DNA of 64,000 nt, taken from Streptomyces sp. TG1A-8. Lineage in GTDB: Bacteria > Actinomycetota > Actinomycetes > Streptomycetales > Streptomycetaceae. Location of the stretch: positions 248,001-312,000 of the forward strand of contig NZ_JASTLB010000001.1 of NCBI RefSeq assembly GCF_030499535.1, in the 5' to 3' direction. Below, one piece after another: positions 2,659 through 64,000 of the stretch. How positions within the stretch are numbered: the stretch's first letter is position 1; each line of letters begins with the position of its first letter. Both the position numbers and the translations under genes were made by a program. Under the pieces are notes generated by a model. That model did not search any database and was not told where the DNA came from. It worked only from the letters and a program-made list of their open reading frames with translations.

Positions 2659-3396
2659 TCAATAACTCGCCGTCTTGATCTCTGGTTTGGGGCTGCCGAG
2701 GTGTGTGGCGAGGTCGGTGAGATCGTCGAGGGTGGCCAATTGCGTCTCGGCGGGTTCGATGGCGTGCCCGATGTCGTGGAGGAGCCGACGGGTTTGGCTG
2801 ATGGCCCGGTTGAGGGTCACGGATGTCACGGTGAAGAGCGGGGCGAGGACGACCTGGGGGAGCTTGAACCGCTGGTAGAGGATGGTGGCCAGGAGTCGGT
2901 CGACGAGGGTGAGGCCGGCGCGTCGACCGGTGTAGAGGCCAGCGGCAGGGGTCTTCCGTCGATCGCCGCCGCGTCGCTGCTGGGGGTCTGCTTCCCGCTG
3001 AGCCGCGCGGGCCGCTGCTAGCTCGGTGACCAGCGAGTCCCACTGCTCGTGCGGGATGCCGGTGAGAGCGGGATGGGTCAGCCAGTCGCGGCCGGGGCCG
3101 CTTCGTTCTGGGGCGGGATCGGAAGGACGCCGTCCCGGCGGTGTTCCTGGGGATGGAGGGTGTAGTTCCAGTCGCCGTGCCAGTCATGGCGGCTCAGCGG
3201 CAGGGCGTTCAGCTGCCCGTCACTGATGCGGACGCCGGTCTCGTAGAGGGCGGTGTCGAGTTCGGCGCGGACTGTCAGCCCCGTGCGGGTGGTGGTCGCT
3301 GCGATGCTGTTCACGATGACTTCATGGCTGGTCAGCGGCCTGCCCCGCCAGTTCATCGTGATGTGGGAGAACAGTCGATGCTCGATTCGGTTCCAC
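2659..3396 (-). pseudogene. ISAzo13-family transposase, 5'-truncated and frameshifted
   Basis: Read on the minus strand, the relic begins at the IS5 junction with NRIEHRLFSHIT, then NWRGRPLTSHEVIVNSIA, then DWHGDWNYTLHP, which is the C-terminal catalytic part of ISAzo13-type transposases. A frameshift near 3060-3100 moves the frame. The extra C-terminal domain typical of actinobacterial copies (THPALTGIPHEQW, then LTLVDRLLATILYQRFKLP) follows and ends at a TGA at 2659. The N-terminal half is absent; the element is cut by the IS5-type insertion at 3397. Confidence 0.75.
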
Positions 3397-3399
3397 TAA

Positions 3400-4250
3400 G
3401 AAGTCGTCTCATTTGGAGTGTTCGGTAGTCTGGCGTCGTGGGGATCGTTGAGCGTCTGGTGCCAGATGGGTTGTGGGAGTTGTTCGAGCGGGTGGTACCG
3501 CCCGCTCCGTCTCGGCCGCAGGGCGGTGGCCGCCGTCGGTACGGAGACCGGGAGGTCCTGGCGGCGATCATCTTCGTGGCCACGTCGGGCTGCACGTGGC
3601 GGCAGTTGCCCCCGTCGTTCGGGCCCTCGGGGCCGACAGCCCACCGGCGGTTCACCGAGTGGACCAAGGCCCGGGTGTGGGCCAAGCTCCACCGTCTGGT
3701 CCTGGACGAACTGGGCAGGCACGGTGATCTGGACTGGAGCCGGTGCGCGATCGACTCGGTGAACATGCGCGCGATGAAAGGGGGGAGCTGACAGGTCCGA
3801 ACCCTGTCGACCGGGGCAAGAAGGGCTCAAAGATCCACTTGATCACCGAGCGGACCGGTCTGCCCCTTTTCCGTCGGCATCTCCGGTGCGAACCTGCACG
3901 ACAGCCAGGCCCTGGAATCCCTCGTCCGCGGCATCCCGCCGATCCGCTCCCGCCGCGGACCTCGCCGACGGCGCCCCGCCAAACTGCACGCGGACAAGGG
4001 GTACGACTACGACCACCTGCGCCGATGGGTACGCAAACGCGGGATCACCCACCGCATCGCGCGCAAGGGCATCGAGTCCTCCAAGCGGCTGGGCCGACAC
4101 CGCTGGACCATCGAACGCACCATGGCCTGGCTCGCCGGCTGCCGCCGACTCCACCGACGCTACGAGCGCAAAGCCGGCCACTTCCTCGCCTTCACCAGCA
4201 TCGCCTGCACCCTCATCTGCTACCGAAAATCCACCAAATGAGACGACCTC
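3400..4250 (+). mobile_element. IS5-type insertion sequence (851 bp)
   Basis: Its ends are imperfect inverted repeats: GAAGTCGTCTCATTTGG on the left, and the complement of GAGGTCGTCTCATTTGG on the right. The trinucleotide TAA flanks it on both sides (3397-3399 and 4251-4253), as expected for target duplication by IS427-group IS5 elements. Related ends recur at the window's right edge (63885). Confidence 0.85.
3438..4241 (+). pseudogene. IS5-type transposase, two-frame with extra frameshift
   Basis: ORF A (3438-3791, 117 aa) carries the N-terminal DUF4096-like part and ends just after the AIDSVNMRAMKGG block in a run of A and G, the usual place for programmed -1 slippage into ORF B. ORF B continues in the -1 frame (DRGKKGSKIHLITERTGLP). 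It is then broken by one extra T near 3868-3871 (CTTTTCC where CTTTCC would keep frame), after which HADKGYDYDHLRRW, then the ERTMAWLAG region, run in the first frame to a TGA at 4239. The slip site looks natural. The second shift probably inactivates the copy unless it is a base-call error. Confidence 0.8.
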
Positions 4251-5651: not shown

Positions 5652-5655
5652 CTAA
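4304..5655 (+). pseudogene. IS701-family transposase, frameshifted near C-terminus
   Basis: The DDE transposase has its first catalytic Asp in IIDDTGF, the second in VTADEAYG and the Glu in AIEECFQAAKNE. Reading is intact to about 5430, then the frame changes between 5430 and 5465. The proper tail (LTVAEIRRLLDTLLP, ending GHEPLLEY at 5655) is found one frame over. All catalytic residues precede the shift, so a longer altered tail may still be produced. The stop lies in the right target repeat. Confidence 0.75.
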
Positions 5656-6519
5656 GACCGTGTCCTATGTGGTGATGGCTCGTTGAGCTGCGTATGGGGC
5701 GGGGTACGTGGAGTTGGATTGTTCCGGACGGGCTGTGGGAGATCGCGAGGCCGCTGATCCCGCCGTCAAAGGTGCGGCCGCAGGGTGGCGGGACGCAGGA
5801 CACGCCTGATGAGACGCTGTTTGCCGCGATCATCTATGTGCTGGTCAGCGGCTGCGCCTGGCGGGCACTGCCACCGTGCTTCGGTATATCGAAGTCCACT
5901 GCGCATCGCCGTTTCGTGATCTGGTCGCGCGCCGGTGTGTGGGGCCGGCTCCATGAGGAGATCCTGCGCCGGCTCGACGACACGGACCTCCTCGATCTTT
6001 CCCGTGTCGTCCTCGACTCCGCCCACGTGAGGGCTAAAAAGGGGCGAACACACAGGTCCGAGTCCCGTGGACCGGGGCAAGCCGGGTTCCCAGATGCACA
6101 TCCTGTCGGACGCGAAGGGACTGCCCCTTCTCGTCGGCATCTCCGCGGCCAACGTCCACGACAGCCAGGCCCTGAAGCCCATGGTGCTCGGTCACCTAAC
6201 GAGACACGACCCGCACAACGGCCGGTACTTCAAGCCCCAGCGCCTGCATGCCGACAAGGCATACGACGTCCCTGAGCTGCGGAAATGGGTACGCGGCAAG
6301 CGCATCGGCGTCCGCATCGCCCGCAAGGGCATCGAGTCCAGCGAACGGCTGGGCCGGCGTCGTTGGGTGATCGAACGGACCATGTCCTGGCTGACCGGCT
6401 ACCGTCGGCTCAACTACCGCTACGAACGCAATCCCCGCAACTACCTGGCCTTTCTGGGGCTTGCCGCAGTCCTCTGCTGCTACAAGCGACTCCTCAAGCC
6501 CACCACATAGGACACGGTC
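5656..6519 (+). mobile_element. IS5-type insertion sequence (864 bp)
   Basis: The inverted repeats start GACCGTGTCCTATGTGGTG on the left; their complement is at the right end. The flanking TAA is duplicated (5653-5655 and 6520-6522). The element abuts the IS701-type copy, giving three elements placed end to end. It is a different IS5 subtype from the copy at 3400. Confidence 0.85.
5694..6510 (+). CDS. IS5-type transposase, overlapping frames
   Basis: The first frame (from 5694) encodes the N-terminal domain (LPPCFGISKSTAHRRFVIW) to LDSAHVRAKKG. The second begins near 6031 and continues VDRGKPGSQMHILSDAKGLP to the stop at 6508-6510, including the RLGRRRWVIERTMSWL block with the catalytic Glu. 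The two frames meet at the run AAAAAGGGG (6036-6044). Here the downstream frame is +1 rather than the usual -1, so either an unusual shift is used or one or two bases are missing from the slip site. Confidence 0.7.
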
Positions 6520-6522
6520 TAA

Positions 6523-6722
6523 GAGTCGTCCTTGCGAACCTACGTCCGCAGCGACTTGGCAGTGATGCCGAGGTCCGCGGTCACCGCCGCGCACGTCCAC
6601 TTCCCGGCCACGGCGCGGCAGAGCGCGACCGCGTCCTTCCTGAACTGCTCCGGATACGGAGACGTGCGTCCCGCCTGGACGTCCCTCCATGGGCCATCAG
6701 CATCCATTGTCAGGGTGTCCAC
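6523..6722 (-). pseudogene. IS3-family OrfA relic, cut by IS5
   Basis: Minus-strand start with YPEQFRKDAVALCRAVAG and DLGITAKSLRT, the HTH of IS3-family OrfA. The conserved Trp that follows is a TAG stop (6540-6542), and the rest is lost at the IS5 junction at 6520. Confidence 0.65.
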
Positions 6723-55456: not shown

Positions 55457-55544
55457 TCACCCGGGACGACCAGGCGCACGCCCAATGCCCGGGAGACCGT
55501 CCGAACCCTCAATGATCCAGACACCGCTCACCGGTGGGATGGTC

Positions 55545-56090
55545 CTCGGGGTGACCAGGCCGGGAGGGAGCGTCCGTGGGGAGCGCGTCGCCGTCGCGCA
55601 GGGGGCACCGGTGCCCGGCCGGGGTGGCCCCGCAGCGCGTGCGGCTGTGCCTGCGGTTCCCGCTCGGCCCCCGCGAGGCGGAGGAGCCGATGCTCCGGCG
55701 CGGTGCGACCCCCTCGTAGGGGACGGGTACGGCGGCGGTGTCAGAAGTCGCGCGGGCCTGTGCCGGCGGACTGTGCCGCCACCGTCTCCCCGCCGGGGAC
55801 GAACGGCACCTGAACAGGGTCTTCCGCAAAGCCGGCGAAGAGCCGGGACGTCCGTGGCGGGCCGTCGGCCAGGCCGGGACGGCGACGTGCTCGACATCCT
55901 GGCGCGGAGCCGCCGGGACCAGGCCGTGGCCGGACGTTTCCTGCGCGGACCGGTGAAGAGGACGCCCCCGGTGCCCCGATTCGTCGTCACGGACAAGCTC
56001 CGTTCCCGCGGCACCGCCCAGCGTCGGGTCGTGCCCTGCGCCGAGCACCGCTCCGTCAAGGGCCTGGAACAACCGGGCCGGGGACGGCCG
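55545..56090 (+). pseudogene. IS6-family transposase relic
   Basis: Begins with the IS6 leader (CGTCCGTGGGGAGCGCGTCG), then RDGDVLDILARSRRDQAVAG and VPRFVVTDKLRSRG (catalytic Asp kept). It ends at HRSVKGLEQPGR, before the catalytic Glu. Confidence 0.7.
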
Positions 56091-56094
56091 TCGG

Positions 56095-56298
56095 CCGGCA
56101 AGGCGGCGGGAACGCGCCCGCTTCCACCGCACCCTGCTCGACGAAGGGGCCTACCTCCGGCCCTACACCGGCAACGACGAACGACCCGCAGCCCTGGCGG
56201 ACTTCCTGCACCACTACAACCGCCACCGCTGCCACACCGCACTCGGCGGCCACCCACCGATCAGCCGTGTGAACAACCCCGCGGGTCGATACAGCTAG
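56095..56298 (+). pseudogene. IS481 C-terminal fragment
   Basis: Reads ARFHRTLLDEGAYLRPYTGN, then FLHHYNRHRCHTALGGHPPI and SRVNNPAGRYS with a TAG stop. Joined directly to the IS6 relic. Confidence 0.7.
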
Positions 56299-62376: not shown

Positions 62377-63239
62377 GGCGCTGTCACGTTGGCTGACCGG
62401 GTGGGATGATTTTCTGGTTGGTCGTGCTGGGAGGGGTCGTCCGTGGACAGCGCACCGCCGTCGCACCAGGGGCACCGGTACCCGGTCGGGATCGTCTCCC
62501 GCTGCGTGTGGCGGTACTTCCGCTTCCCGCTCGGCTTCCGCGAGGTCGAGGGGCTGATGCCCGAACGCGGCGTGGTCGTGTCCCACGAGACGGTCCGCCG
62601 CTGGTGCGCGAAGTTCGGGCAGTCCTGCGCCGACGGCCTGTGTCAAAGGCGGCCCCGGTCCGGGGACACCTGGCACCTGGACGAGGTCTTCACCAGGGTC
62701 AACGGCGAGCGGAAGTATCTGTGGCGGGCCCTCGACGCCGGCGGCAGCGTGCTCGACATCCCGGTCCAGAGCCGGCGGGACACCGCTGCGGCCAGGCGCT
62801 TGTTCCGCAAACCGCTCAAGAAGACCTGCCCGGTGCCGCAGGTGGTGGTCACCGGCAAGCTCCGTTCCCACGGCGCGGCCCACCACGAGGTCACGTCCTG
62901 CGTCGAGCACCGCCCGCACAAGGGCCTGAACAACCGGGCCGCGAACAGCCACCAGCCCACCCGGCAGCGCGAACGCGCGATGAAAGGTTTCCGCAGTACC
63001 GGCGGGACCCAGCGATTCCCGTCCGCGTTCAGCGGCATCCCACCCCACTTCCGACCCCACCGCCACCTGATGACCGCCGCCCACCACCGCGCCGAAACGA
63101 CCCCCCGCTTCACGATCCGGGATCAGACCACCGGCGCCACCGGCCAACCCGCCGAAGCCTGAACACGGAACCGGAACCCTGCCCCACCACACCCCGACAC
63201 GCCGCCAGGCACTCACACACCCACCAACGTGACAGCGCC
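62377..63239 (+). mobile_element. IS6-family element (863 bp)
   Basis: Perfect inverted repeats GGCGCTGTCACGTTGG at both ends; the match extends outward (AAC/GTT). No 8-bp target duplication is seen. Confidence 0.8.
62443..63162 (+). CDS. IS6 transposase lacking two catalytic residues
   Basis: 239 residues, full length for the family: FRFPLGFREVEGLMPERGVV (HTH), first Asp in WHLDEVFTRVNGER. But the second position reads VVVTGKLRSHG (Gly, normally Asp in TDKL), and the third NNRAANSHQPTR (Ala, normally Glu in RAENSHQ). The reading frame is otherwise intact. It should bind DNA but not cut it. Confidence 0.85.
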   Translation: MDSAPPSHQGHRYPVGIVSRCVWRYFRFPLGFREVEGLMPERGVVVSHETVRRWCAKFGQSCADGLCQRRPRSGDTWHLDEVFTRVNGERKYLWRALDAGGSVLDIPVQSRRDTAAARRLFRKPLKKTCPVPQVVVTGKLRSHGAAHHEVTSCVEHRPHKGLNNRAANSHQPTRQRERAMKGFRSTGGTQRFPSAFSGIPPHFRPHRHLMTAAHHRAETTPRFTIRDQTTGATGQPAEA

Positions 63240-63417
63240 GTTGGGCGGCGGTGCGGCTGCCAGCCGTTGCCGAGTTCGACTGCAAGTGCGAAATTCCCCA
63301 CGGATTCGGTGGGCCCTGGACGGGCGCCGCCTCAGCAGCGCCCGTGGGGCCGTGTGAATGAAGTCTTCGAATGTTTTTTCCCATGCTTTTTGAGAAAAGC
63401 AAGGAGGAGGTCAAGAC

Positions 63418-63885
63418 GTGGAAGAACCGGCAGCAAAACTCACCTGTCGGGAGTTAGAAGTACTCCGCCTGCTGGCCCAGGGGTTAAGCAACCGGCTCAT
63501 CGCCCGAAAACTCGACATATCCGAGAAGACCGTGAAGAACCATCTCAGCAACATATACTGCAAGATCGGGGCCACCCACCGCACCCAGGCCGCCCTCTAC
63601 GCCCAGTACGCCGGCCTGACCGACCCCGGGGAAGCGGCTCCGCCCGCTTCGGCACCTGCTCCCCTCCCCGAGAAGGACGCGCCCCCCGCTGGCCCCTGCC
63701 TCACCGCACGCGAGCGGGGCGTGCTCTGCCTGCTGGCCTGGGGATTAAGTAACCGGCTCATCGCTCAAAGACTCGACATATCCGAGAAGACCGTGAAGAA
63801 CCATCTCAGCAACATATACTGCAAAATCGGGGCCACTCACCGCACCCAGGCCGCCCTCTACGCCCAGTACGCCGACCTCGCTTAG
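63418..63885 (+). CDS. Tandem double LuxR-HTH protein
   Basis: 155 residues made only of two GerE/LuxR helix-turn-helix domains. Domain 1 (about 6-65) has LTCRELEVLRLLAQGLSNRL, and domain 2 (about 95-153) LTARERGVLCLLAWGLSNRL; both then share SEKTVKNHLSNIYCKIGATH in full. A Pro/Ala-rich linker joins them. The DNA repeats are nearly identical, so the duplication is recent. GTG start with an excellent AAGGAGGAGG. No receiver, sensor or ATPase. The last G of the TAG stop is the first base of the IS5 at 63885, so the original protein may have been longer. Confidence 0.88.
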   Translation: MEEPAAKLTCRELEVLRLLAQGLSNRLIARKLDISEKTVKNHLSNIYCKIGATHRTQAALYAQYAGLTDPGEAAPPASAPAPLPEKDAPPAGPCLTARERGVLCLLAWGLSNRLIAQRLDISEKTVKNHLSNIYCKIGATHRTQAALYAQYADLA

Positions 63886-64000
63886 AGGTCATCTCATTTG
63901 GAGCCAGCAGTAACCTGGAGGGGCGCCGATGGTTGGGCGTCTGGTCCCGGACGGGTTGTGGGAACTGTTCCAGCGGGCGGTGCCGGAGGCGCCGTCACGC
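63885..64000 (+). mobile_element. IS5-type element, left end (runs off window)
   Basis: Begins GAGGTCATCTCATTTGG, matching the ends of the element at 3400. ORF A starts at ATG 63929 (VGRLVPDGLWELFQRAVPEA) and continues beyond the window. Target base pattern TTA on the left. Confidence 0.8.

Follow-up and report, generated by a model that had tools for sequence, protein, structure and literature searches.

Twin GerE heads on one chain: concerted evolution in a rare Streptomyces protein family and its candidate link to an EPSP-synthase/ATP-grasp gene set

Near the end of the window, as we call the whole stretch of 64,000 nucleotides that was analysed, lies a gene for a protein made of two GerE (LuxR/NarL-type) helix-turn-helix (HTH) domains, their ends and a linker, with no other domain. 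This twin protein belongs to a two-head family that is rare but old, and within its genes the cores of both heads are homogenised even at synonymous sites, which is concerted evolution. Architecture, family and homogenisation are firm. The bond between the twin gene, an adjacent biosynthetic gene set and a candidate DNA site appears good but correlative, and we consider it on balance probable that the protein is a sensorless single-chain 'dimer' regulating this cluster. The features are the following:

62377..63239, plus strand: IS6-family element directly upstream, with its transposase at 62443-63162
63400..63410, plus strand: probable ribosome-binding site, purine-rich, before the start
63418..63885, plus strand: twin-HTH protein, 155 aa, GTG start (open reading frame, Pfam and AlphaFold2)
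63439..63609, plus strand: N-terminal GerE head, residues 8-64 (Pfam, model and structure match)
63454..63456, plus strand: TTA codon, Leu13
63475..63600, plus strand: N-head core, homogenised; codons 12-54 within the domain boundaries used (synonymous comparison and tree)
63484..63486, plus strand: TTA codon, Leu23, in the N-head core
63610..63699, plus strand: Pro/Ala-rich linker of low model confidence (sequence and model)
63700..63870, plus strand: C-terminal GerE head, residues 95-151; its best solved match is the DosR DNA-binding domain
63736..63861, plus strand: homogenised core of the C head (synonymous comparison and tree)
63745..63747, plus strand: TTA codon, Leu110, at the C-head position matching Leu23
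63930..64000, plus strand: start of IS5-family sequence, which extends beyond the window as far as the cluster
G000:C1:314797-325000, outside the window: conserved gene set (HisC-like, EPSP-synthase-like, two ATP-grasps, DUF1611, haem-oxygenase-like, PhyH)

The original prediction described a protein of only two near-identical LuxR HTH domains, lacking a receiver or ligand domain, and our analysis bears out both statements. Pfam places two stretches of GerE (PF00196) on the protein, with an E-value of 5.7e-45 for the whole and a score of 151.2 bits against a curated cut-off of 23.5. The Pfam matches listed, 25 of 55 families, are of HTH type except for one unrelated match below its cut-off, LIF_OSM. 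Neither a receiver (PF00072) nor an autoinducer-binding or other ligand domain was found among these or among the precomputed domains of P0001. At the DNA level, positions 63439-63617 and 63700-63878 form a direct repeat of 179 nt with 88% identity. The AlphaFold2 model (mean pLDDT 81.9, pTM 0.72) contains helices in residues 10-64 and 97-151 and has low confidence in 70-91. The four-helix GerE fold is predicted for the heads, which match those of LiaR, NarL, DosR and GerE with a TM-score to the target of 0.79-0.94 in single-head rows. Taken singly, each head is an ordinary GerE head. The gene is single-copy in its own genome (next match at 6.4e-15), and a GAGGAG-like stretch ahead of the start is kept in most relatives.

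A search for further proteins with two GerE domains only, suggested earlier as a check, scored 7998 candidates, 7873 of them at E <= 0.001, of which the best 120 were listed. By a motif rule, two complete domains are present in 80 of the best 90 matches (P0001-P0090). The ten dropped comprise six sequences cut at an end and four with one motif match, three of which (P0005, P0008 and P0017) have a D/E variant. Among the matches listed, the organisms named are Streptomyces and relatives, and the sources label family members in general terms ('response regulator transcription factor', for instance). With the window's genome counted, the twin was detected at E <= 1e-30 in four genomes out of 392 drawn from the genus and seven out of 297 drawn from the family; at 1e-25 it occurred in one of 61 relatives, namely its own genome, and, for two further genera, in two of 35 and two of 70 genomes. 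The 11 loci read are those from the genome draws plus L011 from a contig scan; a frequent word shared by single-GerE proteins dominated that scan, and of its 80 loci L011 alone was used. Three Streptomyces loci with 45-47% identity (L015, L082 and L089) may be distant twins; for the distant twins P0069-P0090, surroundings were read for G476 only. Carriage by known plasmids or phages was considered and rejected: known plasmids gave no twin match at E 1e-15, and phages gave one unannotated record, whose match covered one domain or 35% of the query.

This distribution changes how the internal repeat is to be read. It had been attributed to a recent internal duplication, with an assembly artefact as a concern, and both ideas are rejected. 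Since the same layout recurs in many independent genomes, an artefact is very unlikely; and with 80 of the best 90 matches two-domain and N- and C-specific domain starts at 11 loci, the near-identity is maintained and not recent. The impression that no family with this layout had been described was sustained, in that the open-access papers searched gave neither a tandem or two-GerE regulator family nor a sensorless twin layout, concerted evolution of such heads or a bond to this gene set.

How the near-identity is maintained becomes visible when the two domains are compared in blocks of nine residues across 79 proteins. Over the first nine domain residues, identity between proteins is 0.77 for N with N and 0.80 for C with C, and 0.68 for N with C inside one protein. 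Residues 9-27 and 36-54 show their highest identity inside one protein (0.83, 0.87, 0.94 and 0.89 per block, against 0.69-0.85 in the other comparisons), and block 27-36 is nearly invariant in all comparisons. The own C domain lies above the mean of the others in 78 of the 79 proteins, but it surpasses every other C domain in only 22. The variable residue of IYxK is the same in N and C for 60 of 80 proteins, where 13.9 are expected.

Similar behaviour is found at the DNA level in 11 genes. Inside one gene the two cores have a synonymous difference (pS) of 0.03-0.32, on average 0.14; between genes the averages are 0.41 (N-N) and 0.43 (C-C). An exception is the closely related pair G258 and G614, whose genes differ from each other by 0.06 and 0.12, less than the cores inside a gene do. 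When the 22 cores are placed on a tree, eight of 11 genes have their own N and C cores as sisters, five of them with starred support; G577 is unresolved, G258 and G614 form one group, and the AU test rejects a topology that unites all N cores (p 7.8e-52). The 30-nt domain heads reverse the order seen in the cores, with 0.72 for N-N, 0.79 for C-C and 0.62 within a gene. Domain starts are orthologous between species and cores are homogenised gene by gene, which implies an old duplication followed by copying between the cores. This copying is best explained by intragenic gene conversion. Among the papers listed from the open-access literature we found nothing on concerted evolution of such heads.

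Past the window end, beyond the IS5-family sequence, follow genes for a HisC-like aminotransferase, an EPSP-synthase-like (aroA-like) protein and an ATP-grasp protein, and the set further holds DUF1611, a second ATP-grasp, a haem-oxygenase-like protein and PhyH; relatives add MFS, alpha/beta hydrolase, luciferase-like and malic-enzyme-like genes (gene calls follow a simple GC3 rule, and some starts are wrong). The EPSP-synthase-like gene is linked to the twin gene in all 11 loci. By tblastn it lies within 7 kb in ten of them, and in S. fuscichromogenes the two genes share a contig at a distance of about 25 kb. The first ATP-grasp gene (ATP-grasp1) is near the twin gene in ten of 11 loci (absent in G476) and the HisC-like gene in nine (absent in G559 and G476); the G102 stretch ends inside ATP-grasp1, and the set was read there to that point. 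In the window's own genome the sole other EPSP-synthase-type match is 29% identical. ATP-grasp1 is detected at 1e-60 in 27 of the 392 genus genomes, five of them with more than 80% identity, and the twin gene occurs in four of these five and in none of the 387 others. The fifth genome, G247, holds the set in a different order with an aroA-like gene of 72% identity, and its whole genome yields no twin gene, the best match (5.9e-16) being of the single-domain type. In G476, where a condensation-domain (NRPS-type) gene is nearby, the aroA-like gene is the only shared part. There, at locus L109 (G476:C1:188000-205500), the distant twin gene stands 58 bp from the EPSP-synthase-like gene, with an upstream site and beside NRPS-type genes; the regulator, this gene and the site may travel together from cluster to cluster. 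In the open-access papers searched we found nothing on the gene set; its identification as a stravidin/amiclenomycin cluster was a guess and was dropped.

Insertion elements surround the gene in the window's genome. A second IS6-family copy at G000:C1:327455-328318, in opposite orientation and 99.4% identical over 864 nt to 62377-63239, forms with the first an inverted pair flanking the twin gene and cluster, about 18 kb. Inspection by eye found no matching target duplications at the flanks of both copies, and we do not claim a composite transposon. Between twin gene and cluster, from window 63930-64000 to about G000:C1:314000, lies a mosaic of IS5-family pieces, with related pieces at window 3396-4065 (79%) and 5652-6525 (99%). 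A diverged IS6-family remnant at window 55526-56117 is 70% identical to the 62377-63239 copy.

The twin genes are also rich in TTA codons. Streptomyces genes with TTA codons depend on the bldA tRNA. The codon occurs in eight of 11 twin genes (not in G559, G476 and S. fuscichromogenes), with three in the window's gene, compared with 14 of 207 neighbouring called genes; the Fisher p of 4e-7 is nominal, as loci are related, genes orthologous, stretches slightly overlapping and gene calls rough. In G000 and G449 a TTA stands at the matching position of both cores. TTA codons and a place beside a biosynthetic gene set are shared with bldA-dependent cluster-situated regulators, of which the types SARP, LAL, PAS-LuxR and StrR have architectures other than twin-HTH.

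A candidate DNA site accompanies the gene set. The motif was derived from the divergent aroA/ATP-grasp promoter of eight loci, where two conserved blocks align by eye without gaps as TGGG[CAGAT or ACCTA]GG[A/T]CCTATT, with a few sites varying at the ends. The consensus of this candidate inverted site is TGGGN5GGWCCTATT, with two halves. GGWCCTATT occurs 26 times in the scanned stretches where a first-order model expects 0.55, a count that is not independent as the motif came from eight of the same loci; in the window it occurs 0 times. Each of the independent loci (G559, G476, G247 and S. fuscichromogenes) has at least one site. The ATP-grasp-side site lies upstream of ATP-grasp1 in all ten twin loci having that gene, and in G559 it precedes the twin match by about 500 nt; the aroA-side site is found in nine of 11 twin loci, the distant G476 included, its exact form being absent in G559 and S. 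fuscichromogenes. G577, G449 and S. fuscichromogenes have additional copies ahead of a luciferase-like gene. In G000 the two sites occupy G000:C1:317646-317658 and 317936-317952, and the twin gene's own upstream stretch contains no exact site. The ATP-grasp site pattern GGGACNTWGGTCCTATT is present once each in five of the 392 genus genomes, which are precisely the cluster-bearing ones, and its reversed-pattern control in none of the 392. The pattern GATGGACCTATTG is found once in the window's own genome, upstream of the aroA-like gene.

Comparison with known regulators helps to interpret this site. DosR/DevR of M. tuberculosis and OsdR of S. coelicolor share the common GerE head, yet each of their chains combines a receiver domain with a single head, where the twin protein has two heads and no receiver. 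The DosR residues 179, 182 and 183, named as core DNA-binding residues in an excerpt of PMC5999986, align with K124, K127 and N128 of the C head; their N-head counterparts are K37, K40 and N41, so that the K-x-x-K-N contact residues are present in both twin heads. In an excerpt of PMC5069765 the OsdR consensus AGGGCCGATCGGCCCT has a GGG-N8-CC layout, and the candidate sites share this spacing and the inverted arrangement of DosR/OsdR sites. Similarly, the DNA-binding domains of LiaR/VraR and NarL resemble each twin head in fold and sequence, whereas the full-length proteins combine a receiver with one head per chain. GerE of Bacillus (solved chain 1fse matched) is a sensorless HTH like the twin protein, but with one 74-residue head per chain instead of two fused heads. 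It had been proposed that the fused heads bind tandem sites as a pseudo-dimer. The pseudo-dimer is plausible; the direct repeats gave way to candidate sites that are inverted and two-half, as would be expected of like heads with DosR-type residues and an inverted site with OsdR spacing.

Two alternative histories of the gene can be weighed against its sequence. It might be a decaying or artefactual gene without function, caught between insertion elements, for which the IS6- and IS5-family sequences on both sides in the window's genome could speak. The layout is identical at the other loci read, however, and core pN (about 0.02-0.17) is well below pS (0.06-0.81) in nearly every gene pair, which makes this explanation highly improbable. 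The likeness of the cores might also come from repeated fresh duplication or slippage in each lineage without gene conversion, and core DNA that is more alike inside genes than between them would fit. Yet N- and C-specific starts persist across species in the 30-nt heads, and the domain-to-domain distance is 77-93 codons in all 11 genes; whole-domain re-duplication would erase this pattern, and we regard such a history as improbable.

A more serious alternative concerns the reader of the sites, which could be a conventional NarL-type response regulator from another locus, such as an OsdR-like one, with the twin protein being a competitor or modulator at these sites or regulating something else. 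G247 keeps the ATP-grasp site without a twin gene, the spacing equals that of the OsdR consensus in the excerpted source, and GerE proteins are numerous in each genome, with 35 matches in the window's own. Against this, the long site pattern occurs nowhere outside the cluster among 392 genomes, unlike the OsdR regulon, predicted at 27 transcription units in the excerpt of PMC5069765, and the twin occurs in four of five cluster genomes and nowhere among the other 387. We judge this alternative unlikely, if less so than the two before.

Regulation of the adjacent cluster by the twin protein itself is on balance probable, with function the weakest part of the case. Against it count G247, which has cluster and ATP-grasp site but no twin gene, the lack of an exact aroA-side site in G559 and S. 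fuscichromogenes, and the lack of an exact site ahead of the twin gene in G000. We infer that two sensorless NarL/DosR-type heads on one chain would form a covalent, always-on equivalent of an HTH dimer, with both heads on one site. The protein would most likely bind TGGG-N5-GG(A/T)CCTATT in the promoters of the adjacent gene set and switch it, probably as an activator, at a level that may be limited by translation of the TTA codons by bldA tRNA. Intragenic gene conversion under selection would keep both reading cores alike within a protein while they drift together between species, because both operator halves need the same reader. That the twin protein is, in full, a single-chain pseudo-dimer matched by gene conversion and the dedicated switch of an undescribed EPSP-synthase/ATP-grasp cluster, movable with gene and site, we put forward tentatively, as a possibility with some doubt attached.

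If true, the family would provide a natural single-chain NarL/DosR dimer free of signal input, and the regulator with its putative operator would give a handle on a conserved gene set on which the open-access papers searched gave nothing. Copying within the gene would maintain a symmetry that is usually gained by dimerising, and heads matched by conversion would let reader and two-fold operator stay paired while specificity shifts in one step.
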